The notes under the pieces: generated by a model
Databases searched by the model: none
Told to the model about the DNA's origin: nothing
Seen by the model: the letters and a program-made list of their open reading frames with translations, nothing else
Part shown: in pieces, positions 13,998 through 38,262 of the stretch
Layout of the letters: the number at the start of each line of letters is the position of its first letter
Position numbering within the stretch: position 1 is the stretch's first letter
Made by a program: the position numbers and the translations under genes
Virus record (IMG/VR): IMGVR_UViG_3300031669_000001
Location: 281,070 to 345,069 of that record
Origin: a virus
Direction: 5' to 3' (one strand)
Length of the DNA stretch: 64,000 bases

Positions 13998-18230
<4,233 letters not shown>

Positions 18231-19143: not shown

Positions 19144-21282
19144 ATGACAGTAACTAGCACAACTTTAGGCCCTAACACTGTAAACATCAACATCTCTGGT
19201 GAGTATAATGTTGGAAATATCATCAACGCGATAGACAACGTGTTGACTACTCATAGTTGGGCCCAATTTGATCTCATCACTCCAACAAATGCATCCTACG
19301 CATACCAACGAATCTACAGGTCAACAAACGTAGATGGCACTTTCAAGTACATGCAGCTCTTCTTCTATCCCTGGAAACACAAGATCTTCATCGATTTCTT
19401 TGAGTCGTGGAACGCGACTACTCACGTCGGTACAAATCAATGTTACATGGGTCCAATGGACATAGGTGCTAGCATAGATTATGGACAAACAGCTTGTAAT
19501 ATCTTAATCATGGCAAATTCTCATTGGTGCGTGATGATGTCAAGCTTCACATTGTCATATTCATCAATGACAGCAGATGCTCAATTTGGGCCTTGGGTCG
19601 GTTGCTTTGAAGTAACAAGAGACGCGTTAGAAGATACAATAGCTAATGGAATTCCATGTTGGTTTGCTACTACATCTTTAAAGTTGGCGAACGGTGGAAC
19701 TACTGGAAACAATGGAACAATTCTTGAGAGCGGGTACAATGGAACCGCGCAATTTGCAGTGAGCTTTCCACGCACAAGCTTAGGAACAGGATACACTGCA
19801 TCTATGCACTCTGGTTCAGTGACGCCTTATTTTAGCTCTGGTTGTCCAAATAACAATGCATCAATAGGTGCAATCCTTGGTAACGTGCTAGGTACGGCTT
19901 CAGCATTTTTTAATAATGGTGGAAATTATGCTTGGGATTTTACTAAAAAGATAGCAAGCTTGTTTAGAGTTAACGTTGGCGCTGAACTTCATGGAACAGT
20001 GATCGGTGCAAAGTTGATGTCTAATCAATTTTCTACTCAGGCAAAGGTAACGATGCCTCTTGATGCAAATTACATTTACAGCTCAGTTGGAACGCCCACG
20101 GATCATGTAGTGTTACCTCTTCAAGTTCAAACTTATCGACAGTTAACTATCAACAATCTTCATCAATATAATACAATCAGCGCTGTAGGATTTTCAAATT
20201 CATCGATGACTTACTTCAAAAATATCTTCCTAGCACCAAATGGATATTATTATGTTTGCACGGGTGCATCGATCTACAAGATAAATCCGATATCAGTGCA
20301 AACGCTCGTCATCAGTGGGTTACCTGGTAACTTGATAGATTCCTGTTTTGACGGTCGTTACATTTATACAGTTTCTAACTCTGCTAATGGAAGCGTTTAT
20401 ACCATTGACACCCAAAACTTTGACTCTGTCATCACCAATACAACGGTGGGTGCAAATTTAACGCCTTATAGCATCTGCTGCGATGACGTAAACATTTGGG
20501 TAGGTTGTAGAAATTCCGTTGGACCTGCCATCAATGTTGTCCAAATTACAAAATCTTCGCCAACAGCGGTAGCTTTTACTACCGCCTGTGCAAATTCTGC
20601 ATCGGTTTCTTACCCTCTAACCGTGATACCTGATAATGATGGAAATTGCTTCACAATTGGATCACAGAATATTTGGACAAGTAATAATACTAATGTCCAA
20701 AATTATTCTTGGAAGATAGCCCCAGGTGGTACTACAACGTCTCTATCTAGCGGCGTGTGGAGCCAGATGTGTGGTCAAATGTTAGTAGGTCCAAGAAAGA
20801 TTTTAACCTTTGGCGCGTCAACGTACTCAAACTTTAATTTAATGCTTGTATCATCGCAAACTTTGTCAACAGATACTCTTACACAAAGCACTAGCATTTG
20901 TATGCAAACGTCAGGTTCAAACTATTTCACGAATACAGTAGGCGGTAATAATACAACTACAGGTAATCTTCAAACGATGGCATTAAATCACCCGATAAAG
21001 TTGAGCACGTATGGAAGTACAGTCCTGCTCAATCAAAGTGGTGGTACCTATGGAACTGCTATGTACGTAAATACTGCAGTCAACTCAAACTTAGTGTTCA
21101 ACACTCAAACTTATTTGAATGATCAAACTGTCCAGAGTTGGCAAGGTTTTGGAGAGATGAAGTACAATCAATGGTTTGGATTGAGTGGAAATGGTGGTGG
21201 CTCGCTGGTCGCAGTTTATAACATTTTTAGAGCAGACGACATCAACAGTTACGCATCAGGAAGAATGATCTTACCGTATTAA
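19144..21282 (+). CDS. large fibre/adhesin-like structural protein, paralog 1
   Basis: 712 residues, beta-rich, Asn/Thr/Ser-rich, no signal peptide. The N-terminal ~330 residues align along their length with the next gene (shared AYQRIYRSTNVDG / IDFFESWNATTHVGTNQC). The C-terminal half contains repeated strand pairs (YYVCTGASIYKIN, RYIYTVSNSANGSVYTIDT, NIWVGCRN) that look like beta-propeller blades. Probably a virion surface protein. The function is inferred from context and composition only. Confidence 0.78.
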   Translation: MTVTSTTLGPNTVNINISGEYNVGNIINAIDNVLTTHSWAQFDLITPTNASYAYQRIYRSTNVDGTFKYMQLFFYPWKHKIFIDFFESWNATTHVGTNQCYMGPMDIGASIDYGQTACNILIMANSHWCVMMSSFTLSYSSMTADAQFGPWVGCFEVTRDALEDTIANGIPCWFATTSLKLANGGTTGNNGTILESGYNGTAQFAVSFPRTSLGTGYTASMHSGSVTPYFSSGCPNNNASIGAILGNVLGTASAFFNNGGNYAWDFTKKIASLFRVNVGAELHGTVIGAKLMSNQFSTQAKVTMPLDANYIYSSVGTPTDHVVLPLQVQTYRQLTINNLHQYNTISAVGFSNSSMTYFKNIFLAPNGYYYVCTGASIYKINPISVQTLVISGLPGNLIDSCFDGRYIYTVSNSANGSVYTIDTQNFDSVITNTTVGANLTPYSICCDDVNIWVGCRNSVGPAINVVQITKSSPTAVAFTTACANSASVSYPLTVIPDNDGNCFTIGSQNIWTSNNTNVQNYSWKIAPGGTTTSLSSGVWSQMCGQMLVGPRKILTFGASTYSNFNLMLVSSQTLSTDTLTQSTSICMQTSGSNYFTNTVGGNNTTTGNLQTMALNHPIKLSTYGSTVLLNQSGGTYGTAMYVNTAVNSNLVFNTQTYLNDQTVQSWQGFGEMKYNQWFGLSGNGGGSLVAVYNIFRADDINSYASGRMILPY

Positions 21283-21294
21283 CAGGAGCAACAA

Positions 21295-23373
21295 ATGACA
21301 ATAACAAGTACCAGCATCGGCACAAACTCCATCGACATCAACATAAACGGTGAGTTAAACTCTGGCGGAATCATCACTGCAGTAGACGCAGCTCTTGTAG
21401 CTCAAGGATGGGCACAATTCGACTTGATCACCCCTACTGGCGCGGCTTTCGCATACCAACGAATCTACAGGTCAACGAACATTGATGGAAGCACCTACAA
21501 GTACATGCAGCTCTTCTTCTATCCTTCAGAAACAAAAATCTTCATCGATTTCTTTGAGTCGTGGAACGCGACTACTCACGTCGGTACAAATCAATGCTTT
21601 TGGGGTCCGATGGACGTAGGTGCATTTGTACAATATTCTTACGCGCTGTGTGACATCATCATCTTGGTATCCCCTCGGTGGGTAGTGTTCCAAACTTTCA
21701 TTAACAATGAACCAGGACCTTGGGTAGGTGCTTTTGAATGTGAACGTGATGCGCCTGAAGATACTCTGTTAGCAGGATTCCCTGCATGGTTTGCAACAAC
21801 TTCTTACATGTTGGGAAGTGGCGCTTCTTGTTACGGTCTTGAATCTGGCGTAGCTGGACAAGCTTCATATAGTGTAGCTTTTCCAAGAAACAATTATGGA
21901 ACGGGATACTTGGCATCGATGTATTCTGGAGTAACTACACCTTATTATGGATCTGGTTCAGTGAGTACAGCAAATCCAGCTACGTGGGCAAGTAATCTCG
22001 CTTCATCTACAGCATCATTTGGAAATTACGCGTGGAATACCGCTAATAAAATTGTTTGTGCATTTAGACCTCGCGTTCAAGCTGAGATTCATGGACGTGC
22101 GATAGGACCAAAAATTACAGGCGGTGCTTATTCTATCTACAACAAGATAAACATGAACGTAGATGCAAGTTACATGTGGGTATCTACAGGTGGAACATCA
22201 ACGGATCATTGGGTTCTTCCTCTTCACAATTTTACATATCGCGGTCCAACACAAACTGTAAACATTCCTCATGCCAGCCTCACGATGATTACAAATTCTA
22301 CAACGATGTACAGGAAGATTTATCTTGCACAAAATGGATATTATTACGCGTTGGCAATCACTGGAGCTCTACATAAGATCAATGTAACTACTTTAGTATT
22401 GAGCGTTGTTGCAAGCACTGGTAACTTGACAGATATATGTTATGATGGACAGTACATCTGGGGTGCAGTGTACGCTGCAAATGGAACATTAATGCAGATA
22501 GATACCAATAACTCTGATACAGTTACTATAGGGGCTGCAGTTGGAGCATCAATGTCGCCTGTATCCATCGCATGTGATGATACAAATATTTGGATTGGTT
22601 GTTATTTCGCTGGGCAAGCAAAGGTGGTGCAGATAGTAAAAGCTACACCATCTGCCGTCGCTTTTACAACATCTTTAACTGGTGCTACCTCAACTCCTTA
22701 TCCAATATCTATCATCGTAGATAATGATGGAAATGCTATGGTTGGAACATCTAATATCTTTTCTAGTGCAAGTCAAAATTTTGGTATAACTTACACTAAC
22801 TTTTTCCAAGTTAAACCAGGTGGAACACAAGTAGCTTTTGGTTTGACTGGACAAGCAGATTGTCAAGGTGTTTTGATGATTGCACCAAGAAAATGTTTGT
22901 TAGTTGATCAATCAAACACTAATAATTCTTCTACTTCATTGTCAGCATATACAGTAAGCACTGATACTAGCACCTTAAGCATCAACATAATTCAAACGCT
23001 AGTAGCAGTTAGCAGTTTGAATAATACTCTTCAATGGTGTGCTAATACAATATCTAATACTAATATGAAGATTAGCATGATAGGTGGAATTCCAAATTGC
23101 ATGTTTGCATCTACTCAAGGTTTAACAAACTTAGGTACATTTTATGTTAACACTCCAATTCACGGTAATGTACCTATAACAGCTATCGCTACTTATATTG
23201 ATTTAGTTTCATCAGAAATAACCACTCCCGTTTGGGGTGAATTTAAGTACAACATGTACTATGGAACTAATAACGTAAATCTTTACGTTTCGACCAGCGT
23301 CTGGCGCGCTGATGATGGATATGCTACAACGGTCGGCGCGGTTGGTGCTGGTCGATTGTTGTTGCCAGTATAA
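21295..23373 (+). CDS. large fibre/adhesin-like structural protein, paralog 2
   Basis: 692 residues, tandem paralog of the previous gene with the same N-terminal module and the same propeller-like C-terminal pattern (YYYALAITGALHKIN, QYIWGAVYAANGTLMQIDT). DNA is identical over 59 bp (19384-19442 and 21538-21596) while flanking regions differ, so recent gene conversion or strong local conservation is likely. AGGAG precedes the ATG. Confidence 0.78.
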   Translation: MTITSTSIGTNSIDININGELNSGGIITAVDAALVAQGWAQFDLITPTGAAFAYQRIYRSTNIDGSTYKYMQLFFYPSETKIFIDFFESWNATTHVGTNQCFWGPMDVGAFVQYSYALCDIIILVSPRWVVFQTFINNEPGPWVGAFECERDAPEDTLLAGFPAWFATTSYMLGSGASCYGLESGVAGQASYSVAFPRNNYGTGYLASMYSGVTTPYYGSGSVSTANPATWASNLASSTASFGNYAWNTANKIVCAFRPRVQAEIHGRAIGPKITGGAYSIYNKINMNVDASYMWVSTGGTSTDHWVLPLHNFTYRGPTQTVNIPHASLTMITNSTTMYRKIYLAQNGYYYALAITGALHKINVTTLVLSVVASTGNLTDICYDGQYIWGAVYAANGTLMQIDTNNSDTVTIGAAVGASMSPVSIACDDTNIWIGCYFAGQAKVVQIVKATPSAVAFTTSLTGATSTPYPISIIVDNDGNAMVGTSNIFSSASQNFGITYTNFFQVKPGGTQVAFGLTGQADCQGVLMIAPRKCLLVDQSNTNNSSTSLSAYTVSTDTSTLSINIIQTLVAVSSLNNTLQWCANTISNTNMKISMIGGIPNCMFASTQGLTNLGTFYVNTPIHGNVPITAIATYIDLVSSEITTPVWGEFKYNMYYGTNNVNLYVSTSVWRADDGYATTVGAVGAGRLLLPV

Positions 23374-25212: not shown

Positions 25213-25482
25213 TTAAATCAGATGGTGTAATTGTGCTTTTGCTATCATGTCAGAGATAACTTTTTCACCTTTGAATACTTTCTTTAAAAGCTCGTCAGCT
25301 TCGTGATGTTCACGAGTAGCGATCAAATATGCATGATAGACAGCTAAAGTGTCAAAGCAAGATGGTCTTAGGATCTGTGCGGTCTTAGTATTGACTAATG
25401 CTTTTTCTTCTAGGTTAATCTTGATGTGACACATTCCAATTATTCTCATATTTGCTGACGAAATGCAATTGTTGAATTTCAT
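25213..25482 (-). CDS. hypothetical protein, 89 aa
   Basis: Starts at ATG 25482 (MKFNNCISS). A TTG eight codons upstream extends the frame but lies in an inverted repeat (AGCACG / CGTGCT) next to the tmRNA. Helical C-terminus. No function visible. Confidence 0.6.
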   Translation of the reverse strand: MKFNNCISSANMRIIGMCHIKINLEEKALVNTKTAQILRPSCFDTLAVYHAYLIATREHHEADELLKKVFKGEKVISDMIAKAQLHHLI

Positions 25483-25524
25483 TTCGTCAGCACGCTGGCG
25501 AACCAACGTGCTAGTTGTTAGATT

Positions 25525-25855
25525 TCTTTAATAAGGTAGAAAGCTTTCACCCTCTATTCTAAACCTCAGGCAACAATTAAGCTGCCAGAGCCAGAGCTCC
25601 GTTTGCGTCGTTTGCATTTACATGCTTGTCAGATTTACGGTCTGTACTCACCGAGTTGTAAAATTAAGGTACGTCCCTACTCAATCGAAACCAGGTACAC
25701 CCCCATTAGGGGGCACTAGTTACTTTGATCCGACCTGGGTTCAGGTGTTAATGCGAATCAGGGAGCTCTAGTGCTCGGTGGAGGTGGGGAGAATCGAACT
25801 CCCGTCTTGCGCAGCTTTCGCTTTTTCCTTTCAGCAGTTTCCTGCCATACAACCA
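25525..25855 (-). ncRNA. ssrA: circularly permuted (two-piece) tmRNA
   Basis: On the minus strand the acceptor half comes first: T-arm GGGAG-TTCGATT-CTCCC then acceptor strand CACCTCC plus ACC at 25786-25777. After an intervening loop with GCACTAG...CTAGTGC pairing, the 5' half begins at 25704 with GGGGGTGTACCTGGTTTCGAT, the conserved tmRNA 5' end. GGGGGTG pairs with CACCTCC over seven positions. The tag frame starts at 25615: GCA then NDANGALALAA and TAA at 25579-25577, so the tag is ANDANGALALAA with the ClpXP-type LAA end. This gene order is that of two-piece tmRNAs. It rescues stalled ribosomes with SmpB. Outer ends are approximate. Confidence 0.9.
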
Positions 25856-25873
25856 TCTTTACTACTTGAATCC

Positions 25874-25903
25874 ATTATAACAAATTGATACATGAAAGTA
25901 CAT
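25874..25903 (-). promoter_or_regulatory. early-type promoter of the tmRNA (ATGTAC - 18 - TATAAT)
   Basis: TATAAT at 25874-25879 and ATGTAC at 25898-25903, 18-bp spacing, ~20 bp upstream of the first tmRNA half. Confidence 0.72.
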
Positions 25904-26022
25904 TATTTATTTGCGGGCTTTTGATTCCAATAGATAGTTGCGAGCGTGAGAAGAACACCCACACCCATTCCTAGGAAAAAAGCTGTGGAGTAGCACAGCA
26001 CATACTCTAAAATGATTTCCAC
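25903..26022 (-). CDS. small membrane protein, 39 aa (GTG start)
   Basis: GTG at 26022 follows the preceding stop by one base; stop TAA at 25903-25905. One strong membrane segment (AFFLGMGVGVLLTLATIYW) and a short positive tail. Its 3' end touches the tmRNA promoter. Confidence 0.5.
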   Translation of the reverse strand: MEIILEYVLCYSTAFFLGMGVGVLLTLATIYWNQKPANK

Positions 26023-27744: not shown

Positions 27745-28075
27745 CTTCTTTTTCTCCGGGAGTTAAAAAGTTGTTCCAGCAAAGTTTCATTTCTTCGTTA
27801 AACTCTAACGTTTCGACGTTGAATGGGATTATCTCTAGAGTCTCCAAATCAAGTCTATCAAACCTAATACCCATCAACTCAGCAGCGTAAACAGGAATAG
27901 GTCCATCAAAGATTCCATTATGTTCAGGAACGAAGTCGATTTGGCACTTATCACACCAAAGATGCTTCGCGTATTCTGACCACTGTGTGTTCTCATTACC
28001 ACACTTACAAGGTGCTATGTCATACTTTCTTGGTGGCTGAACGTAGCACCAAGTTCGCTTAATCAGCTCTGCCAT
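27725..28075 (-). CDS. zinc-binding-like protein, 116 aa
   Basis: CKCGNENTQWSEYAKHLWCDKC around residues 23-44 gives a CxC...CxxC zinc-ribbon-like pattern. The rest is acidic. Overlaps the YqeY-like gene start region. Unknown function. Confidence 0.7.
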   Translation of the reverse strand: MAELIKRTWCYVQPPRKYDIAPCKCGNENTQWSEYAKHLWCDKCQIDFVPEHNGIFDGPIPVYAAELMGIRFDRLDLETLEIIPFNVETLEFNEEMKLCWNNFLTPGEKEDDEDCA

Positions 28076-28512
28076 GTGGCGATGACGTCTTTCGCGATGC
28101 GCGCAGCGAGTCCGCCGTCATAACGACCCTCGTATTTGAACTTTAGAATCTTGAGCATCTCACCCATTGGCTTATTGGCAACGTCGAAGCCATTCACCTT
28201 GACGATGTCGATCAGAATTTCACGAATCTTTTCTTCGGTGAGTTGTGCAGGCAGGAAAGAATTGATCAGCTCTTTTTCAGTCGTAGCATCAACGAAGCGC
28301 TCATCACCTTCTGCAAGTAGAGGAAGAATTTGATCGAGGTTCTTGATGAACTTCTTTATCACGGCAATTGTTTCTGCATCGGTCGTTTCGCGACCTTCGT
28401 TCTTACCAACCATAGTTGCTTCAGAAAGAAGTGTGATCAGAGAAGCTGCCTTCTTGGATTCGCGATTTTTGCGCGCTGTGATAGACGCGGCTTTAATGTC
28501 ATCGAGAATCAT
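28063..28512 (-). CDS. GatB/YqeY domain protein
   Basis: 149 residues matching the YqeY family layout: N-terminal helical IKAASITARKNRESKKAASL, central DLDQILPLLAEGDERFV, and C-terminal tail domain with GGLAARIAKDVI. YqeY resembles the tRNA-binding tail of the GatB amidotransferase subunit. In a phage rich in tRNA genes it may bind tRNA, though its biochemical role is unknown. Confidence 0.8.
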   Translation of the reverse strand: MILDDIKAASITARKNRESKKAASLITLLSEATMVGKNEGRETTDAETIAVIKKFIKNLDQILPLLAEGDERFVDATTEKELINSFLPAQLTEEKIREILIDIVKVNGFDVANKPMGEMLKILKFKYEGRYDGGLAARIAKDVIATWQS

Positions 28513-29749: not shown

Positions 29750-30142
29750 TTACAGCAACTTAAGGTGCCCAGTTATCGCGTTAATCTTATCATTCTCTGC
29801 AGGACCAACAGAAATGCATGTATTGGTTGGAACTCCACTGAATTCTGTTAACCCACTATCAGTGATCAGCGAGCAGGTTATTCCAGCAGCTTTAGCCTTC
29901 TCTAATAGTTCAAGAAGCTCGGCTTCACTGTTAACACCGCAACAGATCTTCTTGAACACTCCTTTCATGAGCCACTCATCCATCTCAGGCGTAAGTGGGA
30001 TCATGAGGTAACGTGCTCCTCCATTGGCAACAAAAACACTTCCACTATCAACAACGGGTTTCATAGAAGCGTGAGAACCTTGGGCTACCATCTTACCCTT
30101 GCGCATGTTGAGGTCGGTCCTCATTACAATGACCTGTTTCAT
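29750..30142 (-). CDS. peptidyl-tRNA hydrolase, Pth2 type
   Basis: 130 residues. Matches the archaeal/eukaryotic-type Pth2 family end to end: KQVIVMRTDLNMRKGKMVAQ at the N-terminus (catalytic Lys and Asp), GSHAS, a DSGLTEFSG segment, TCISVGPAENDKIN, and ITGHLKLL at the C-terminus. It frees tRNAs from drop-off peptidyl-tRNA. Bacteria normally use the unrelated Pth1, so this is an unusual import. It fits with the tmRNA and tRNA genes nearby. Confidence 0.9.
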   Translation of the reverse strand: MKQVIVMRTDLNMRKGKMVAQGSHASMKPVVDSGSVFVANGGARYLMIPLTPEMDEWLMKGVFKKICCGVNSEAELLELLEKAKAAGITCSLITDSGLTEFSGVPTNTCISVGPAENDKINAITGHLKLL

Positions 30143-31615: not shown

Positions 31616-32122
31616 TGATCCAATCTCCTCGAGAAGTTCTTGTAACGTGATAGATGATTTACTACTCTTCGAGGCATTTGCCTTGTGTGGAATAAACTCA
31701 CAGTTTGCAGGATGAGAGATAATCCTCGGATCTATTTGATTCTTGAATCCAAAATCTATTGATAGTCTGTGATCTCTAACGACTCCGCTAGGATTCGTCT
31801 TCCTTGAATACATTCCATACTTTACTAATAGATCATAACCTTTGATAGTTTCGATTATGCCTGCCAAATTGAAAGTGCATTGCTCTTGATAGATCATCTT
31901 TTTCAATTTTGCTTCGTCGGTAACTTTGCGTTTACCGAGTTTTGTTTCTGACATACTTTGAATTCTGGGGTGACTTTCTTTCGTGAGACCTTTTGACCAA
32001 GTAGTTTTCCCTTTATTTGGAGAAGGTATAGGTTGAAGCCCATTTCGATGAATCAGACACCACCGATAATGAGCGTTCAAAGATTGAGCATTTGGGAAGT
32101 CTCGTTCACATTTACATTTCAT
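31607..32122 (-). CDS. HNH homing-type endonuclease, start codon overlaps tRNA CCA
   Basis: 171 residues. N-terminal zinc-finger-like CKCERDF...HYRWCLIH, NUMOD-like linker (ETKLGKRKVTDEAK) and an HNH nuclease: RDHRLSIDFGFKN then HPANCEFIPHKAN. Likely a site-specific, mobile endonuclease. The A of its ATG is the terminal A of the CCA of tRNA-Leu(GAG), so translation has no normal ribosome-binding site. Its C-terminus runs into a tRNA remnant. Confidence 0.85.
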   Translation of the reverse strand: MKCKCERDFPNAQSLNAHYRWCLIHRNGLQPIPSPNKGKTTWSKGLTKESHPRIQSMSETKLGKRKVTDEAKLKKMIYQEQCTFNLAGIIETIKGYDLLVKYGMYSRKTNPSGVVRDHRLSIDFGFKNQIDPRIISHPANCEFIPHKANASKSSKSSITLQELLEEIGSTR

Positions 32123-32207
32123 GGTGCGACTGGGGAGAGTCGAACTCCCATGCCTTTCGGCACACGGACCTCAACCGTGCGCGGCTACCAATTACGCCAC
32201 AGTCGCA
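32122..32207 (-). tRNA. tRNA-Leu(GAG)
   Basis: Complete cloverleaf: acceptor TGCGACT, anticodon arm CACGG-TTGAGGT-CCGTG, long variable arm TGCCGAAAGGCA, T-arm GGGAG-TTCGACT-CTCCC, encoded CCA. Class II, as expected for Leu. Confidence 0.9.
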
Positions 32208-32208
32208 T

Positions 32209-32508
32209 TTAGTCTTTTTTACGCCTTATAAACGTTAAGTTACTAAGCAAGATAGCTCTTTCATAATCATCTGGACCTCCAACAAGAATTGAAGTACTAG
32301 ACATTGGATCGACTTTTACTATAGCTTCATCACCATTTTTACCGTGATAGAGATATAAAACGTCACCTTCAATCTTTCCTCCAGAAGATGATTTTGGAAC
32401 TTTTATGAACGTTAATTCACCAACCTCCGGCAAAAATTCATCATCAGTTTGAACTCTATCATATATTTTCGCTTCTTCACCGCCAGCATAAGGACCAAAA
32501 TAATTCAT
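32209..32508 (-). CDS. hypothetical protein, 99 aa
   Basis: Beta-rich small protein (LTFIKVPKSSSGGKIEGDVLY), possibly an SH3-like fold, but not recognised. It ends two bases before the tRNA-Leu 5' end. Confidence 0.68.
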   Translation of the reverse strand: MNYFGPYAGGEEAKIYDRVQTDDEFLPEVGELTFIKVPKSSSGGKIEGDVLYLYHGKNGDEAIVKVDPMSSTSILVGGPDDYERAILLSNLTFIRRKKD

Positions 32509-32521
32509 TTATGATTTCCTT

Positions 32522-32698
32522 CTAATGTGTTACATTCCAGTAGATCCTAAATCCAGCAATTGATCTTCCAGCTACAAACACGATGGTCACATAAGGAGCT
32601 TGATCACGCAACTTACGATCTATCTGAATCGTCGGCAGTGACCAAGCCTCTGGAACGTAAGCGGTCTGTTTTGAAGTTATCTTTTGAAACTCTATCAT
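32522..32698 (-). CDS. hypothetical protein, 58 aa
   Basis: ATG at 32698 directly abuts the bS21 stop; TAG at 32522. Sequence starts MIEFQKITSKQ and has alternating strands. Not recognised; coupling to bS21 supports it. Confidence 0.6.
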   Translation of the reverse strand: MIEFQKITSKQTAYVPEAWSLPTIQIDRKLRDQAPYVTIVFVAGRSIAGFRIYWNVTH

Positions 32699-32911
32699 TT
32701 AGTACAACTTTGGAGGCAACAGATTCGTTGCAAGACGCTTTTGATGGCGCTTCACTGCAGATGCATGCTTGCGCTTGCGTTCTGTTGTTGGCTTCTCATA
32801 AGCTTCACGATCTCTAAGTTCATTCAGCAATCCTGTCTTCTCGACAGCTCGTTTGAACCTGCGCATTGCAGACTCAAACGATTCATGTTCTTTCACATAA
32901 ATTTTTGTCAT
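32699..32911 (-). CDS. rpsU: ribosomal protein bS21
   Basis: 70 residues aligning along the whole length with bacterial S21: [20 protein letters not shown], then [20 protein letters not shown] and a C-terminal LPPKLY. S21 sits near the anti-Shine-Dalgarno end of 16S rRNA and affects initiation. A phage copy may be assembled into host ribosomes and favour phage mRNAs. It overlaps the upstream gene stop and lies in the tRNA cluster. Confidence 0.94.
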
Positions 32912-33250
32912 TTATTCTCCAGTTACGCTTGGATAATCAGCATCGATCATGTCCAGATACGCTAGCGGGCTCATGCCTGGTTCCAAGATCTTGATGTTTG
33001 TGAATCCATTTTCTTCGGTGATCAGTGAATCTTTTTCGTCAATAGAACCACGAAACTTGCCATCACCTTTCTTATGCATGAGCTTTCCCTTTGGACCAGA
33101 GTCAGAGGGATCTACGGAACCCCATTGACGATGCGGATCGCCCATAGGTTCAACAAAGTATTTCTTGCCTGTACGAGGTGAATGATAGATGAAGCGACCC
33201 GTCTCATCAGTATGAGTGAGGAACTTTGTTACAATCTTGGGGTCAATCAT
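32912..33250 (-). CDS. hypothetical protein, 112 aa
   Basis: I start it at ATG 33250 (MIDPKIVTKF), which has GGAGAAGAAAA upstream. A longer frame with a CKHGVPYRARCEAC motif reaches 33337 but overlaps the tRNA-like element. Charged, strand-rich. Unrecognised. Confidence 0.65.
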   Translation of the reverse strand: MIDPKIVTKFLTHTDETGRFIYHSPRTGKKYFVEPMGDPHRQWGSVDPSDSGPKGKLMHKKGDGKFRGSIDEKDSLITEENGFTNIKILEPGMSPLAYLDMIDADYPSVTGE

Positions 33251-33312
33251 TTTTCTTCTCCATATATCTTCTTCCAAGCAAGCTTCGCAGCGAGCGCGGT
33301 AAGGTACTCCAT
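33247..33312 (-). CDS. possible 21-aa peptide
   Basis: Frame MEYLTALAAKLAWKKIYGEEK has GGAAG upstream and overlaps the next start by ATGA. An amphipathic helix. Weak evidence. Confidence 0.3.
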   Translation of the reverse strand: MEYLTALAAKLAWKKIYGEEK

Positions 33313-33338
33313 GTTTACAACTTCCAGTATCTTCCATA

Positions 33339-33463
33339 GGTGCAACGTGAGAGGACTCGAACCTCCATACTCTCCAAGTTCTTGGTTTCCCAAGGTAGTC
33401 GGATCGAACCGACGGTCTCCGGCACCGATTGGGCCGTGCCTACCCCATTGCAGGACCACGTTA
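33339..33463 (-). tRNA. composite tRNA-like element with two T-arms
   Basis: Outer acceptor pairs GTAACGT at the 5' end with ACGTTGC at the 3' end, and there is a canonical T-arm GGAGG-TTCGAGT-CCTCT. Inside lie a second T-arm-like hairpin (GTCGG-TTCGATC-CGAC), a GNRA hairpin CTTGG-GAAA-CCAAG and an arm GGCAC...GTGCC with a 10-nt loop. No normal anticodon arm fits. It may be a fused tRNA pair or the 3' domain of the structured RNA next to it. Confidence 0.45.
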
Positions 33464-34145
33464 CATAGAATATACCATTAGAGCTGAAGCCAATCGGCAG
33501 ATACCTCTCTCTGTTTTCAGGTTCTTTCCACGGTCTATTCAAGAGCCAATCGAATTCGCGCTTATAGTAACCAATATATCTCCTGGCGGAAGATGGAGCA
33601 ATTGAAGCCCAACCTGTTTCCAGGTCGATCTGTTTTCGAGGCAGTCCCGGCACGCCTGTCCGGTTCATCTTCCGTGGCCAGAGGTGGTCATCCTCTGGAT
33701 GTTGCGATCTATGGGTTAGGTCTGACGAAACCTCTAAGACTCTTCTCGCGGCCCTAGTTACGTCCTGCCCCTAGCTTTGACGTTATCTTGGCATTTCCCC
33801 GGCGGGAACGGAACAACTACTGGATCTAATCCTTCACGAGTTATGCGAGTAGTACGCAATACCGTATATCGTTGCCGTGATCCACGACGGAGGTACAGTC
33901 ATCGGCTCCTCAGGTATGTCTTTGATGATGTTGCCAAGCTCGCTCTTGTACCGCCGTTCGGCCTTGAAAACGAAACCTATAGCTCAATCAAACAACACTA
34001 AGCATCCTGAACTACTACAACACTAGATTAAAGAGTGAATCTGCAGATTCGCTGCCCGACACAGTAACATCAGGGGCTGTACCGAGCAATCTTCAAACAT
34101 CATGTTATGGTTGACTGCGAGGGATTCAACCTCTACGCAATCAAT
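33464..34145 (-). ncRNA. candidate large structured non-coding RNA (~0.68 kb) in the tRNA cluster
   Basis: A long stretch without a convincing gene, more GC-rich than its surroundings. The minus strand holds strong hairpins: CCAGAGG...CCTCTGG, ACCTG-GAAA-CAGGT with a GNRA tetraloop, GAATCTGCAGATTC, and a T-arm-like GAGG-TTGAATC-CCTC followed by ACCA near 34110. One open frame (ending IGYYKREFDWLLNR and beyond) exists in part of it but lacks a good start. Location in a phage tRNA cluster, size and GNRA loops recall GOLLD/ROOL-class RNAs. That link is inference. Confidence 0.4.
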
Positions 34146-34208
34146 TGAGCAGCAAAATTAATGACCTTTGCTTTTATCACTGGGACGGTCAGGCAGGGAC
34201 TCAAATTC
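34146..34208 (-). repeat. ~62-nt repeated structured spacer, copy 1
   Basis: Shares a core (TGACCGTCCCAGTGATAAAA then GCAAAGGTC) with 36741-36804. Outer stem here is TTGAG/CTCAA; in the other copy it is TAGAG/CTCTA, so paired bases changed together. Confidence 0.65.
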
Positions 34209-34232
34209 TTATTTAATCGAAGCAGCTTCGTC

Positions 34233-34508
34233 TTAGTAATGCTCGCGAGTTACGCTGTACTGCTTTTTTGCTTCTGGGTTAGGAACGCGTTCACCTTCAG
34301 GATTTTCTTCGGTTACATTGATAACCATCGTGAAGTATTCTTCTTCTTTTTGTTTCTTCAACGCATTTGCTTCTCCAACCGTCAAGCATTGTTTCGGACC
34401 GAAAACATATTTGCTACACTTTTTATCCATATCAATGGTTGGATTGCCGTTACGATCTTGTGGACCGTCAGGATGCAATTGCATTACTGATACATGGTAA
34501 GTTGCCAT
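34233..34508 (-). CDS. hypothetical protein, 91 aa
   Basis: Small soluble protein with a charged middle (ANALKKQKEEEYFTMVINV). Unrecognised. Directly downstream of an early-type promoter. Confidence 0.7.
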   Translation of the reverse strand: MATYHVSVMQLHPDGPQDRNGNPTIDMDKKCSKYVFGPKQCLTVGEANALKKQKEEEYFTMVINVTEENPEGERVPNPEAKKQYSVTREHY

Positions 34509-34541
34509 TGTTGTGTACTTTCATGTGTAGTTGAGATGATC

Positions 34542-34570
34542 ATTATAACACAAAGAACAAAAAAGTACAC
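34542..34570 (-). promoter_or_regulatory. early-type promoter (GTGTAC - 17 - TATAAT)
   Basis: TATAAT 34542-34547, GTGTAC 34565-34570; just downstream of the tRNA at 34577. Confidence 0.78.
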
Positions 34571-34576
34571 ATCATT

Positions 34577-34654
34577 TGGTGCGAGTGGAGGGATTCGAAC
34601 CCACACTGTACGACTTCTAAAGCCGTTGCCTCCTACCAATTGCGCTACACTCGC
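34577..34654 (-). tRNA. tRNA with anticodon UAG and short variable loop
   Basis: Acceptor GCGAGTG/CACTCGC, anticodon arm ACGGC-TTTAGAA-GTCGT, T-loop TTCGAAT (one mismatch in the T-stem), encoded CCA. UAG reads CUA/CUG (Leu), but the variable loop is only ~5 nt, unlike the class II tRNA-Leu(UAG) at 36562. It shares a D-arm and variable loop with the CAA tRNA at 38185. Confidence 0.75.
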
Positions 34655-34744
34655 GGCAGAGAATACCAGAATCGAACTGGAAGCCCTCGCGGGCTCACAT
34701 CGCTTTCCAAGCGAGCCTTGTCGACCAGACAAGGATTATTCTCT
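34655..34744 (-). tRNA. tRNA-Ser(GGA)
   Basis: Acceptor AGAGAAT/ATTCTCT, anticodon loop TTGGAAA, long variable arm GAGCCC-GCGA-GGGCTT, T-arm CCAG-TTCGATT-CTGG, discriminator G. Abuts the next tRNA. Confidence 0.9.
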
Positions 34745-34766
34745 ATTTGTTGTTCCTTAGTAAGCA

Positions 34767-34852
34767 TGGTGGGTGTGAGAGGATTCGAACCTTTCAATGC
34801 TTGCGCGCCGGCATATTGGCCGGTGGGAATCACCATTTCCCCTAGACTACCC
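34767..34852 (-). tRNA. tRNA-like gene, isotype unclear
   Basis: T-arm AAAGG-TTCGAAT-CCTCT and encoded CCA are canonical. The acceptor pairs over only four or five positions, GGGAA-ATGGTGA-TTCCC could be an anticodon arm (GGU) but is too close to the 5' end, and CCGGC-CAATAT-GCCGG forms another arm with a 6-nt loop. Degenerate or unusually folded. Confidence 0.5.
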
Positions 34853-34853
34853 A

Positions 34854-34937
34854 TGGTGCCGCCGAAGGGATTCGAACCCTCAATGGCCGAAGCTCTCAAC
34901 CTCGTAACTGTGCCAGATTTGTATTAGCCACAGCGGC
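34854..34937 (-). tRNA. tRNA, probable anticodon GAG (Leu), atypical D-arm
   Basis: Acceptor GCCGCTG/CGGCGGC, arm CGAGG-TTGAGAG-CTTCG, T-arm GAGGG-TTCGAAT-CCCTT, encoded CCA. The stretch between acceptor and anticodon arm is about six bases too long; GTG...CAC pairs there as in 36656-36739. Variable loop short. Confidence 0.6.
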
Positions 34938-34938
34938 A

Positions 34939-35562
34939 TTATTTGTTGCTTCTAATACTTTCCACCGTTCCCGGTGACATGTCTCTCATCTGAACTGCTA
35001 ACGCTTTCAACCTCTTGAAAGATGTTGGTAAGCAGTTGTCAGGAACATCTCCAGCCTGTTCAACGATCAGAGCAGCCATCTCACCAAATAGTAACACAGG
35101 CAGGTGAGTCTTACGCATCATGTCATCATGCTTCGCTCCGTCGATCAAAACTCCATTCGCGTGAGTTACGATCTCGTTGCTTATCATTCTGAACAGTTCA
35201 ATAACCTTCGAGCTGTCCCTCGTTGAATGTGTTACGATGCAGGTCCTACCTTCTTTTGGACTGTTAGGCCCAAACATAGGGTGAATTCCTGTAACGTGAT
35301 CACTGTGCGTTAAACAGATCTCGTTAGATCTCCGCTGAACTGAACAAACGTTGATTAGGTGCTTTCCAACGTGCCTTACTGCAACTTCATCAAATGCAGA
35401 GATCGGAACTGCTAGGATGATAAAATCGGCGTCATCTTCATCTACGATCTTGGCGTGTGATTCCAATTCCCTCTTCAAGAATGAACCAAACACTCCCATA
35501 CCAACTATGGCGATCTTCATCTCTGTTGGTGGTGCAGCCGAAAATGGACCTGTATCGTTCAT
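34939..35562 (-). CDS. TyrA-like prephenate dehydrogenase family protein
   Basis: 208 residues from ATG 35562 (AGAGGTG upstream; a longer frame runs back through a tRNA and is spurious). Rossmann motif IVGMGVFGSF at ~19-28, then IILAVPISAF, and the TyrA hallmark GIHPMFGPN with its conserved His-Pro. TyrA converts prephenate to 4-hydroxyphenylpyruvate for Tyr synthesis using NAD(P)+. Shorter than bacterial TyrA. It lies between tRNA genes, in a cluster with three tRNA-Tyr genes. Confidence 0.82.
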   Translation of the reverse strand: MNDTGPFSAAPPTEMKIAIVGMGVFGSFLKRELESHAKIVDEDDADFIILAVPISAFDEVAVRHVGKHLINVCSVQRRSNEICLTHSDHVTGIHPMFGPNSPKEGRTCIVTHSTRDSSKVIELFRMISNEIVTHANGVLIDGAKHDDMMRKTHLPVLLFGEMAALIVEQAGDVPDNCLPTSFKRLKALAVQMRDMSPGTVESIRSNK

Positions 35563-35585
35563 GATGCACCTCTGGTTATAAAAAT

Positions 35586-35660
35586 TGGCGGGCCTGCAGG
35601 GAATCGAACCCCGCTGTTCGGTTTTGGAGACCGACATAATAGCCGATATATGACAAGCCC
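35586..35660 (-). tRNA. tRNA-Trp(CCA)
   Basis: Acceptor GGGCTTG/CAGGCCC, D-arm CATA...TATG with GG, anticodon arm TCGGT-CTCCAAA-ACCGA, discriminator G and encoded CCA. Canonical. Confidence 0.92.
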
Positions 35661-35774
35661 GGTCCGAGGAGCGGGGTTCGAACCCGCATGCCATAGGCGG
35701 GAGATTTTGAGAAACATTCACGTTAGTAAATGTTTGAAAAAGTCTCCTGAGTATACCAGTTTCTCCACCCTCGG
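35661..35774 (-). tRNA. tRNA-Leu, probable CAA, with a ~31-nt hairpin insertion in the anticodon arm
   Basis: Acceptor CCGAGGG/TCCTCGG, D-arm GAG...CTC, T-arm GCGGG-TTCGAAC-CCCGC and variable arm CGCCTATGGCAT are normal. The anticodon stem GGAGA/TCTCC encloses 38 nt instead of seven: an AAACATT...AATGTTT hairpin precedes CTCAAAA. If the insert were removed the loop CTCAAAA (CAA) would close. No known bacterial small-intron splicing explains this. Confidence 0.72.
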
Positions 35775-35800
35775 ATCAACGTTTCTTTTGGTGCGATATT

Positions 35801-36523
35801 TCAAATTCCAATAGCAAATTTCAAATCTTCACAATCTATCAATCTAATCTTTCCAGAAATAAATTTGGAATAATTTCCAATATTCTTTTCATCTCTAATC
35901 AAATAAATTTTGATATCTGGATGATCTTTAAAAACTTTTTGATATTTTACAATATCTCTTTGTGATAACCAACCTTTGACTTCAATAAAAACATTTTCAA
36001 AAATAGAGAAATCTGGCGTATAAATTTTATGATCCCCATATTTGATTCTTGGCCGAGATATCGAATAACCTAATTCTAAAAGTTTTAATCCTACATTGTA
36101 CTCCCATGTTCCTTGAACTTTAATTCCACCAACTTCAAACCATTTAATATGCGGAGAAGTTTCTAGATATTTAATTCTAGCTTCTGAGATTTTTCTTTTT
36201 GCATCTTCAGAAAGATTAAATCTTCTTCCTAGATTACCTTTACTTATTTTTCTTCTTGTCTCTTCGTGATTTGAAACAATTTCTTCTAATTTCTTTCCCT
36301 TAAATTTGCTAAGTTTGCCTTTGAATCCTGATGGTTCTGGGATTTTGCCATCTCTATGAATTAAACACCATCTATAATGAGAATTTAACGATTGAGAATT
36401 TAAGAATTCCCGTCCACAATCACATTTTAATTCAAACAATAAATTATGAACAATCCTACGATGTTTATTCAAATTTCCATTTGATGAAAATTTTTTATTG
36501 CAATCTTTACATTTTAGATCCAT
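35801..36523 (-). CDS. zinc-finger PD-(D/E)XK homing-type endonuclease
   Basis: 240 residues. C2H2 finger CKDCNKKFSSNGNLNKHRR at the N-terminus, a second finger CDCGREF...HYRWCLIH shared with the HNH gene at 31607, NUMOD3 motif SEDAKRKISEARIK, then a nuclease core TWEYNVGLKL, TPDFSIF, IEVKGW (PD-ExK). Very AT-rich compared with neighbours, suggesting transfer. A TATAAATA box five bases upstream leaves no room for a ribosome-binding site. Confidence 0.82.
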   Translation of the reverse strand: MDLKCKDCNKKFSSNGNLNKHRRIVHNLLFELKCDCGREFLNSQSLNSHYRWCLIHRDGKIPEPSGFKGKLSKFKGKKLEEIVSNHEETRRKISKGNLGRRFNLSEDAKRKISEARIKYLETSPHIKWFEVGGIKVQGTWEYNVGLKLLELGYSISRPRIKYGDHKIYTPDFSIFENVFIEVKGWLSQRDIVKYQKVFKDHPDIKIYLIRDEKNIGNYSKFISGKIRLIDCEDLKFAIGI

Positions 36524-36528
36524 AAATC

Positions 36529-36536
36529 TATTTATA
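36529..36536 (-). promoter_or_regulatory. late-type promoter TATAAATA at the start codon
   Basis: TATAAATA, five bases, then ATG at 36523. T4-like spacing would put transcription start on the A of ATG. Confidence 0.5.
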
Positions 36537-36561
36537 GAAGACCATAGAGTATACCGAATTC

Positions 36562-36648
36562 TGGTGCGCGATGTCGGACTCGAACCGACACGCCCGTGAG
36601 GACCCCGACGTCTAAAGACGGGAAGACTACCAATTCCATCAATCGCGC
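36562..36648 (-). tRNA. tRNA-Leu(UAG)
   Basis: Acceptor GCGCGAT/ATCGCGC, anticodon arm CCGTC-TTTAGAC-GTCGG (one mismatch), variable arm GTCC-TCAC-GGGC, T-arm GTCGG-TTCGAGT-CCGAC, encoded CCA. Class II. Confidence 0.85.
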
Positions 36649-36655
36649 TTACTTC

Positions 36656-36739
36656 TGGTACCCTCGACCGGATTCGAACCGGTAAAAACTCTAGATTTTA
36701 AATCTAGCGGCTGTGCCAATTTACCTAAGTCACGAGGGC
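36656..36739 (-). tRNA. tRNA-Leu(UAA), atypical D-arm
   Basis: Acceptor GCCCTCG/CGAGGGT, perfect anticodon arm CTAGA-TTTAAAA-TCTAG, T-arm ACCGG-TTCGAAT-CCGGT, encoded CCA. The D region is about six bases longer than normal with GTG...CAC pairing, and the variable region is short for Leu. Confidence 0.78.
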
Positions 36740-36740
36740 A

Positions 36741-36804
36741 CATAGAGCAGCAATATTTACGACCTTTGCTTTTATCACTGGGACGGTCAAGCAGAGACTC
36801 TATT
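36741..36804 (-). repeat. ~62-nt repeated structured spacer, copy 2
   Basis: Fills the space between two tRNAs. Core identical to 34146-34208 with a few changes; outer stem ATAGAG/CTCTAT and inner AGCAA/TTGCT pairing are kept. Confidence 0.65.
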
Positions 36805-36878
36805 TGGCAGGCTGTGAAGGAATCGAACCCTCGTCCGGAGTTTTGGAGGCTCCGTCATTACCACTATGTTAACAACCC
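36805..36878 (-). tRNA. tRNA-Trp(CCA), second copy
   Basis: Acceptor GGGTTGT/ACAGCCT, loop CTCCAAA in stem GGAGC/ACTCC (closing C-A mismatch), T-arm GAGGG-TTCGATT-CCTTC, discriminator G, encoded CCA. Diverged from the copy at 35586. Confidence 0.75.
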
Positions 36879-36969
36879 GGCGGAAGATGGCGGATTCGAA
36901 CCCCCTAACCCTTTAACAGGATCAAACAGTTTTCAAGACTGTGCTGCTCTCCGAGACAGTAGATCTTCC
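36879..36969 (-). tRNA. tRNA-Ser(UGA)
   Basis: Acceptor GGAAGAT/ATCTTCC, anticodon arm ACAGT-CTTGAAA-ACTGT, long variable arm GATCCTGTTAAAGGGTTA, T-loop TTCGAAT. Abuts both neighbouring tRNAs. Confidence 0.88.
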
Positions 36970-37056
36970 GGCGGAAGGTCAGGGAATCGAACCCTCAACC
37001 CTTCCGGGTTGGCGACGGCTTTCAAAACCGTTTGTGTACCATACACGCTACAATCC
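36970..37056 (-). tRNA. tRNA-Ser(UGA), second copy
   Basis: Anticodon arm ACGGT-TTTGAAA-GCCGT, variable arm AACCC-GGAA-GGGTT, T-arm GAGGG-TTCGATT-CCCTG, discriminator G. Two mismatches in the acceptor stem. Sequence clearly different from the adjacent Ser(UGA). Confidence 0.8.
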
Positions 37057-37155
37057 GGTGGGCATCCGTGGAGTTACACCACGATTAAGTCTCGTTTTGA
37101 GGCGAGAGGTCGCTGATCTGGCGACTGAGGCAGTTATTACCATCGCTAGATGCCC
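37057..37155 (-). tRNA. tRNA-like gene (possible Leu-CAA) with extra hairpin
   Basis: Acceptor GGGCATC/GATGCCC is perfect. An additional arm GTCGC-CAGATCA-GCGAC (7-nt loop) precedes the probable anticodon arm TCTCG-CCTCAAAA-CGAGA. The T-arm CGTGG-TGTAACT-CCACG has a non-canonical loop. 99 nt in total. Degenerate or modified fold. Confidence 0.55.
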
Positions 37156-37159
37156 ATAT

Positions 37160-37249
37160 TGGTGGATCACGGACGGAATCGAACCTCATGCCCAGAGGGA
37201 GAAGCTTTACAGGCTTCCGACAGCACCAGCAGTCCTTATTACGCGATCC
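37160..37249 (-). tRNA. tRNA-Tyr(GUA)
   Basis: Acceptor GGATCGC/GTGATCC, anticodon arm GAAGC-CTGTAAA-GCTTC, variable arm with CCC-TCT-GGG, encoded CCA. The T-stem pairs imperfectly. Class II as in bacteria. Confidence 0.8.
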
Positions 37250-37254
37250 ATGTT

Positions 37255-37860
37255 CTAAATCAATTTCAATTCTTTTAGCTTCTTTTTATCCCAGAACTCA
37301 AATTTCACATCAGGATATTTCATTTGCCATTCTTCAAACTTTTCTTTATTAGCTGGTCTCCAATAACCTTTCACTTCAATAATTGTTCCATCTTCTAGAA
37401 CAAAATCTGGTCTGTAAGATCGTTTTCCGTCTAACTTGAAAACAACTTCTCCGTACTTCCAACTAATATCTTGTTCATCAAGATATTTTGCAACTTTTAC
37501 TTCCCAGCTAGAATCCATTCTAATGTTCTTGTAAAGAGATTGTCTATCTCCTCGATGATTTCCGTTCTTATTTCCAATCATCTTTTTTGCAATCTTTTCA
37601 CACGTTGTAAGCGAATGGCTTTTATTCTTGAAAGCTGCGTCATGATCTAGTAGATGACGTTTTACTCCTTCTGAAATATTGCCTATTCTTGGGTCTGTAA
37701 ATTTATTCAATCCTTTAGACCATCCACGATTTAAGAAAATTTTATCGCGAAATTCTTTACTCTTTGGATTTTCTAAGCACCATCTTGTATGATTTGCTTT
37801 CTTCGACTTATCCGCCGAGCTAAATTCAAATTCATTGCTGCAAAATTTACATTTCCACAT
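37255..37860 (-). CDS. PD-(D/E)XK homing-type endonuclease
   Basis: 201 residues. N-terminal zinc-finger-like CKFCSNEF...HTRWCLEN, a NUMOD-like middle (GNKNGNHRGDRQ), and nuclease core SSWEVKVAKYL, YRPDFVL, IIEVKGYW. Same family as the gene at 35801 but distinct. Preceded by a late-type box and good AGGAG. Likely mobile within the tRNA cluster. Confidence 0.82.
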   Translation of the reverse strand: MWKCKFCSNEFEFSSADKSKKANHTRWCLENPKSKEFRDKIFLNRGWSKGLNKFTDPRIGNISEGVKRHLLDHDAAFKNKSHSLTTCEKIAKKMIGNKNGNHRGDRQSLYKNIRMDSSWEVKVAKYLDEQDISWKYGEVVFKLDGKRSYRPDFVLEDGTIIEVKGYWRPANKEKFEEWQMKYPDVKFEFWDKKKLKELKLI

Positions 37861-37877
37861 ATCTTTTCTCCTGAAAC

Positions 37878-37885
37878 TATTTATG
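37878..37885 (-). promoter_or_regulatory. late-type promoter box CATAAATA
   Basis: Followed by GTTTCAGGAGAAAAG and ATG at 37860. Confidence 0.45.
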
Positions 37886-37917
37886 GAAACGGGTTAAACT
37901 AACTAATTGGTCCCCTC

Positions 37918-37996
37918 AGCCGGATTCGAACCGGCAATACACTTACGTGGCTCTGCAGTCTGAGTGCAGCGACTTTACCAATTTGCCCATGAGGGG
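37918..37996 (-). tRNA. tRNA-Leu(CAG)
   Basis: Acceptor CCCCTCA/TGAGGGG, anticodon arm CTGCA-CTCAGAC-TGCAG, variable arm CACGTAAGTG, T-arm GCCGG-TTCGAAT-CCGGC, encoded CCA. Canonical class II. Confidence 0.92.
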
Positions 37997-38006
37997 AAAG
38001 TCTATT

Positions 38007-38091
38007 TGGTGCGTCTGCCTGGAATCGAACCAAGATGATCAGAGATAACCGGGTTACAGCCGGTGCCGCCTCCATAACGGTCTACAAACGC
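38007..38091 (-). tRNA. tRNA-Tyr(GUA), second copy
   Basis: Acceptor GCGTTTG/CAGACGC, anticodon arm ACCGG-CTGTAAC-CCGGT, variable arm with ATC-TCT-GAT, T-arm CTTGG-TTCGATT-CCAGG, encoded CCA. Confidence 0.85.
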
Positions 38092-38092
38092 T

Positions 38093-38181
38093 TGGTGAGT
38101 TGGTAGTGAATCGAACACTATGCCCTAGGGAAGAGTTTTACAGACTCCTGACAGCACCAGCTATCCTTATTGAACCAACTC
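38093..38181 (-). tRNA. tRNA-Tyr(GUA), third copy
   Basis: Acceptor GAGTTGG/CCAACTC, anticodon loop CTGTAAA in GAGT/ACTC stem, variable region TTCCCTAGGGCAT, T-arm AGTG-TTCGATT-CACT, encoded CCA. D-arm nearly identical to the copy at 37160. Confidence 0.86.
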
Positions 38182-38184
38182 CAT

Positions 38185-38262
38185 TGGTACCCACGATCGG
38201 ATTCGAACCGACACTGTGTAGTTTTTGAAACTACTGCCTCCTACCAATTGCGCTACGTGGGC
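38185..38262 (-). tRNA. tRNA with anticodon CAA and short variable loop
   Basis: Acceptor GCCCACG/CGTGGGT, anticodon arm GTAGT-TTCAAAA-ACTAC, variable loop ACAGT, T-arm GTCGG-TTCGAAT-CCGAT, encoded CCA. CAA reads UUG (Leu), but the class I shape is not typical for Leu. Shares the D-arm GTAGCGCAATTGGTAGGAGG with the UAG tRNA at 34577. Confidence 0.78.

Follow-up and report, generated by a model that had tools for sequence, protein, structure and literature searches.

A likely functional circularly permuted tmRNA gene in a T4-related jumbo phage and the occurrence of such genes in cultivated phages

The results of our analysis showed that the minus strand of a viral DNA stretch carries a complete circularly permuted tmRNA gene (positions 25489-25904). 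The stretch (here called the window) makes up the final 64 kb of a virus contig of 345,069 bases, which may be incomplete, and the TerL and PolB proteins placed this contig with the large jumbo myophages related to T4. Based on PolB, the nearest isolate was Xanthomonas phage XacN1 (34% identity), which also ranked with the nearest ones based on TerL (38%). Judging from the sequence data, we consider it likely that the gene is a functional one that belongs to the phage, works with host SmpB and most likely keeps ribosomes usable. This reading followed from the architecture of the gene, its intact pairing, selection on its tag, its phage-type promoter and the presence of the same gene at another locus in a relative.

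A preliminary description had proposed a phage-encoded tmRNA of the permuted, two-piece type and had named a covariance-model search as a check. Both a gene finder and the covariance models agreed with that proposal. Specifically, ARAGORN called a permuted tmRNA (tmRNA*) with the tag ANDANGALALAA on the minus strand (25486-25868). Processing of its transcript would be expected to yield two RNA pieces. The permuted tmRNA family RF04321 (tmRNA_permuted) matched over the full length of the model at 25577-25836 on the minus strand, with a score of 84.5 bits (E value of 1e-14 in 64 kb) compared to a curated cut-off of 47 bits. When the clade models RF01849 (alpha), RF01850 (beta) and RF01851 (cyano) were compared, the best was beta_tmRNA RF01850, which scored 63 bits at 25487-25888. 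This score did not reach the curated value of 84, so "beta-type" describes a leaning in the case of the window copy; the copy in the nearest relative (L002) scored 87.8 bits with the same model, which was over the cut-off. The tmRNA strand also outfolded all 100 dinucleotide shuffles (z score of -4.2).

On the minus strand, the promoter was followed by the acceptor half, the intervening sequence, the coding half (which includes the tag) and the terminal hairpin, as listed here.

25874-25901, minus strand: promoter, with GTACTTT at 25901-25895 and the extended -10 element TGTTATAAT at 25882-25874; the start of the pre-tmRNA is expected just downstream.
25777-25868, minus strand: acceptor piece, the 3' half of the tRNA-like domain (ARAGORN, Rfam and pair test; 5' end approximate).
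25814-25807, minus strand: 5' side of P2, CTGCGCAA, in the acceptor piece.
25803-25787, minus strand: T arm, in the acceptor piece.
25786-25780, minus strand: acceptor strand CACCTCC, in the acceptor piece.
25779-25777, minus strand: A73 and CC, in the acceptor piece.
25705-25776, minus strand: intervening sequence to be removed, 72 nt (from the sequence).
25489-25704, minus strand: coding piece, the tag region and downstream structures (ARAGORN, Rfam and pair test; 3' end approximate).
25704-25698, minus strand: 5' half GGGGGTG, in the coding piece, followed by the D-like arm GGTTTCGA.
25684-25677, minus strand: 3' side of P2, TTGAGTAG, in the coding piece.
25577-25615, minus strand: tag reading frame, ANDANGALALAA and stop, with resume codon GCA (ARAGORN).
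25489-25512, minus strand: terminal 10-bp hairpin, AGCACGTTGG-TTCG-CCAGCGTGCT, which corresponds to the final helix in the beta_tmRNA model.

The order given in the preliminary description, with the acceptor half before the tag-coding half, was thus borne out by CACCTCC-A-CC at 25786-25777, GGGGGTG at 25704-25698 and the tag at 25615-25577. The encoded 3' end of the tmRNA was CCG and not CCA, and the first base of the intervening sequence was a G where CCA would have an A; therefore, the CCA end must be added. The intervening sequence was able to form a GCACTAG/CTAGTGC helix, and its length was 72 nt in the window, compared to 18 nt in the relative and as much as 207 nt among other phages. The window gene shared with the permuted tmRNA families (RF04321, RF01849, RF01850 and RF01851) the acceptor-then-coding order, the T arm, the acceptor, P2, G3.U70 and a tag frame ending in AA. 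It differed from them in being phage-borne, in its 72-nt intervening sequence, in its CCG encoded 3' end and at the D-arm/P2 junction, which was GATTG/CAAGAC in the window gene and is usually GACNGG/CNGGAC in the families. Directly after the last hairpin of the tmRNA, we also observed a 12-bp hairpin (GCTGACGAAATG/CATTTCGTCAGC, window 25454-25491) without a T-run, for which a role in processing or termination is possible.

The pairing of the tRNA-like domain was examined in 13 permuted tmRNAs, with the intervening sequence left out, at 19 pairs (247 cells). All 13 sequences came from phage records or viral contigs, and one of them (L078) may be bacterial sequence. In this alignment, 97.2% of the 247 cells paired, compared to 45.7-60.7% when the columns were slid by one to three positions. 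Changes on both sides of a pair were found at 11 pairs and in 51 cells, compared to 16.6 in shuffles, and the covariation score was 0.582 versus 0.202. Because the relatedness of the sequences is lost in shuffles, the comparison with the slid versions is the fairer one. Pairing was used to locate the acceptor halves, which gave the acceptor helix a built-in advantage in this alignment; sequence anchors were used to place the T arm and P2, and these two held 8 of the 11 double-changed pairs. G3.U70, which is needed for alanine charging, was invariant across the 13 sequences. In the window gene itself, G3.U70 was present, the T arm formed 5/5 pairs, and P2 formed nearly all pairs with one mismatch (G.A). 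The acceptor formed 7/7 pairs, and the pairing of GGGGGTG with CACCTCC noted in the preliminary description was therefore found to be complete.

The tag frame had an alanine resume codon and an AA ending. A phage contig (G002, IMG/VR 3300037483_000443; 135,654 bases) that was co-linear with positions 126-257 kb of the window contig, and in which many proteins were 50-80% identical, encoded a tag with the same 12 residues. The two tag sequences differed at six bases, all of which were third-position and synonymous (0 nonsynonymous differences), while the segments flanking the tag were 41-53% identical. Under neutrality, the chance of synonymous-only change in the tag was about P = 0.001, a value based on one independent pair. 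As judged by the sequences of this single pair, the tag is under purifying selection. It ends in ALALAA, which is an ordinary protease-targeting kind of ending and makes it less likely that the tag has a protective effect on its carrier. Hence, the idea that the phage marks proteins with a phage-specific sequence drew no support in the sense of a special tag fate.

The tmRNA genes of 3300037483_000443 and 3300037424_000713 shared with the window gene the 12-aa tag, the D-arm/P2 junction and a co-linear genome. However, their intervening sequences were 18 nt long and the genes were located inside the main tRNA array, whereas the window phage had no tmRNA at that place in its genome and carried its 72-nt version 74 kb away from its main tRNA array. 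The different loci indicate that the gene was moved or exchanged with its tag unchanged. Pattern searches of viral contigs for more close relatives of the tmRNA yielded only L002 and L003. In a 389-kb contig with a 62% identical TerL (G012), neither a permuted nor a standard tmRNA was detected; either phages of this lineage can do without the gene, or part of the genome is missing from that contig. A bacterial source of the tag was also considered. The only match in a bacterial contig was a Coxiella-labelled MAG, and it was rejected because its tmRNA is a one-piece form. The long tag of this one-piece tmRNA (L083:990-1405) ends in exactly ANDANGALALAA, which is probably a coincidence.

The promoter upstream of the tmRNA gene belongs to a recurrent class of the phage's own. 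The motif TGnTATAAT occurred 70 times in the contig, compared to a mean of 14 for control motifs consisting of TGn plus anagrams of the hexamer, and the sites shared a GTTTACTTT-like upstream element that resembles the T4 early promoter. The tmRNA promoter had the same parts as this class, with a spacing that was one base longer, and the same arrangement was found upstream of the tmRNA in the relatives (L002/L003). The site was absent from the output of a plain sigma-70 scan. The early-type promoter that the preliminary description had placed directly upstream of the gene was thus recovered as a phage-class extended -10 element.

The genome in which the gene is located is rich in functions related to tRNA. 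ARAGORN identified 52 tRNA genes in the contig, and the following features were noted.

32122-38262, minus strand: ten tRNA genes in the window (ARAGORN).
28063-28512, minus strand: YqeY/tRNA amidotransferase-like protein (PF09424, phrog_1460).
29750-30142, minus strand: peptidyl-tRNA hydrolase PTH2 (PF01981).
Contig 207040-208374, outside the window: CCA-adding/poly(A)-polymerase head-domain protein.

Like the tmRNA gene, a number of the tRNA genes of the phage did not encode CCA. A search of the contig for SmpB gave no match to PF01668, and SmpB was likewise not found in the other phage records tested. A linear ssrA elsewhere in the genome, which would have counted against the permuted gene, was not apparent either: no match to the one-piece tmRNA family RF00023 was over the cut-off in the contig, and the weak matches were tRNAs or parts of the permuted gene. 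A tRNA with a CUA anticodon (amber suppressor type) was located at contig 202917-202992, in G002 (L088:1692-1768) and twice in XacN1 (L047:317-475). This tRNA raised the idea of TAG recoding, which was unsupported, since TAG was the stop codon in 10 of the 105 conserved ORFs. Elsewhere in the window, the translations suggested a nicotinamide phosphoribosyltransferase-like protein (3625-5109) and a NadM/Nudix-like protein (7187-8344), likely a NAD-salvage pair. In addition, a 1410-aa collagen-like protein with GPTG repeats was encoded at 13998-18230 on the plus strand, and two related 700-aa proteins (19144-23373) were encoded downstream of it; all three are probably fibre or adhesin genes.

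If the gene works as we propose, the phage promoter would produce a pre-tmRNA, from which host RNase P and 3' processing enzymes would excise the intervening sequence and trim the ends. The CCA end would be built by a CCA-adding enzyme of the phage or the host, and host AlaRS would charge the tmRNA via G3.U70. Host SmpB would then bring the tmRNA to stalled ribosomes, and the stalled chains would gain the ANDANGALALAA tag and be passed to host ClpXP. The benefit would most likely be that ribosomes can still be used when the RNAs of the host are being degraded or are outnumbered, with the tmRNA as one member of a large phage set of tRNA and translation-maintenance genes. On the sequence evidence, ribosome maintenance during infection appears to be the function that fits this setting best.

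A different use of the same molecule is unlikely in our estimate. In this scenario, the tmRNA would be a tool for something other than rescue and would over-tag host or defence proteins for ClpXP or take SmpB from the host tmRNA. The contig is without SmpB, and any phage tmRNA would thus compete with host tmRNA; moreover, host-protein tagging was proposed by the authors of PMC9004378, and inhibition of host tmRNA is described for a phage tmRNA consisting of the tRNA domain only (DS6A) or for a molecule of that kind (PMC4131195, PMC11915505). However, titration of SmpB does not need a complete tag under selection, and nothing is known that would select host chains as substrates for over-tagging.

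It is very unlikely that the gene is a captured bacterial ssrA that persists as a functionless passenger or a decaying copy. Lineages do differ in the presence and position of the gene, and the RF01850 score is below that of the relative (63 versus 87.8), as might be seen with such a copy, but the synonymous-only change in the tag, the compensatory changes in pairs and the gene's own phage-class promoter argue against it. Contamination, or a chimeric assembly with a bacterial contig, is extremely improbable. The source is a metagenomic contig and not an isolate; nevertheless, the gene lies between phage genes inside the contig under the phage's promoter class, and it is present again in a phage contig that is co-linear with this one, as well as in isolates, XacN1 among them.

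The preliminary description had regarded a permuted tmRNA in a phage as unusual, a claim of novelty that fails because two-piece phage tmRNAs were surveyed in 2022, when 53 were counted, of which 50 came from marine or aquatic samples (PMC9004378); the isolates described below add to these. Two-piece tmRNAs were published for the OM43 phage Melnitz and the pelagiphage Mosig (PMC9004378). Like the window gene, both are phage-encoded permuted tmRNAs, and the Melnitz gene also has an upstream promoter. In contrast, the Melnitz and Mosig tmRNAs are alpha-type and marine, and Melnitz has a glutamine riboswitch, whereas the window gene is nearest to the beta model and belongs to a jumbo phage with 52 tRNAs. 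SmpB was not found in the Mosig record.

We also found unannotated permuted tmRNAs in cultivated phages, including soil and plant-pathogen phages; they comprised non-marine isolates and one marine isolate. All of the permuted tmRNAs found in isolates exceeded the RF04321 cut-off.

Xanthomonas phage XacN1 (AP018399.1, 37231-37530 and 356026-356325): tag ANANTFDYALAA; two copies, in 66-kb terminal repeats.
Sinorhizobium phage Phosso: tag ANDNVSTKVALAA.
Achromobacter phage JWDelta: tag ANDDYIRLAA.
Xanthomonas phage Rb1: tag ANDDNFRPALRLAA.
Stenotrophomonas phage DLP_6: tag ANDDSFAPMAIAA.
Stenotrophomonas phage QDWS359: tag ANDSVYAQAIAA.
Bordetella phage PHB04: tag ANDDYIRAAA.
Alcaligenes phage QDWS595: tag ANDNVYAAAA.
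Ruegeria phage V10: tag ANINNAPMEMAIAA.

The newer part of these results is breadth, that is, unannotated genes in cultivated isolates, and these isolates may overlap the 2022 survey list. XacN1 shared with the window phage a beta-type permuted tmRNA, many tRNAs, a CTA tRNA and a CCA enzyme; unlike the window gene, its tmRNA has the tag ANANTFDYALAA, lies in terminal repeats and has a GOLLD RNA nearby. The word "tmRNA" is absent from the XacN1 paper (PMC5852040). A GOLLD RNA was located within about 1 kb of the permuted tmRNA in both XacN1 (L047:2840-3253) and V10 (L134:343-776), which are unrelated phages, and none was found in the searched parts of the window phage. In QDWS359 (NC_073028.1, L133:968-1546), the annotation has a hypothetical protein on the other strand that covers the permuted tmRNA and is probably a spurious gene.

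Xanthomonas and Stenotrophomonas have a one-piece tmRNA of their own. The tmRNAs of XacN1 and DLP_6 were over the cut-off of the beta model when the clade models were applied. The three main clades of bacteria in which permuted tmRNA genes have been recognized are the Alphaproteobacteria, Betaproteobacteria and Cyanobacteria (PMC11915505), and Xanthomonas and Stenotrophomonas are outside these clades. The suggestion that the gene may show the host lineage is weakened by these findings: since phages that infect Xanthomonas and Stenotrophomonas carry beta-type permuted genes, the host cannot be read from the form of the gene, which is a weak marker of host lineage. With the one-piece form of the host genes taken as general background, it follows that the permuted gene of a phage can be of a kind that its host lacks. 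A class-wide search around the Coxiella-labelled MAG gave beta_tmRNA over the cut-off in 1 of 274 genomes, a figure that does not establish the form of the gene in Xanthomonas or Stenotrophomonas. We tentatively suggest, as a possibility somewhat short of probable, that permuted tmRNAs make up a phage-borne pool and are passed between phages whose hosts differ, some of these hosts having a one-piece gene, and that some phages thereby install a foreign two-piece rescue RNA and make trans-translation independent of the host gene.

The more useful result is the wider, under-annotated spread of permuted tmRNA genes in isolates. Annotation is corrected in the case of the QDWS359 gene that lies under a hypothetical protein and in the case of XacN1, on whose tmRNA the published paper is silent. 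A supposed oddity becomes a pattern that is open to laboratory tests via isolates such as XacN1, Rb1 and DLP_6. It thus becomes possible to ask how a phage benefits from having a ribosome rescue of its own, and whether a two-piece tmRNA is functional in a host with the one-piece form.
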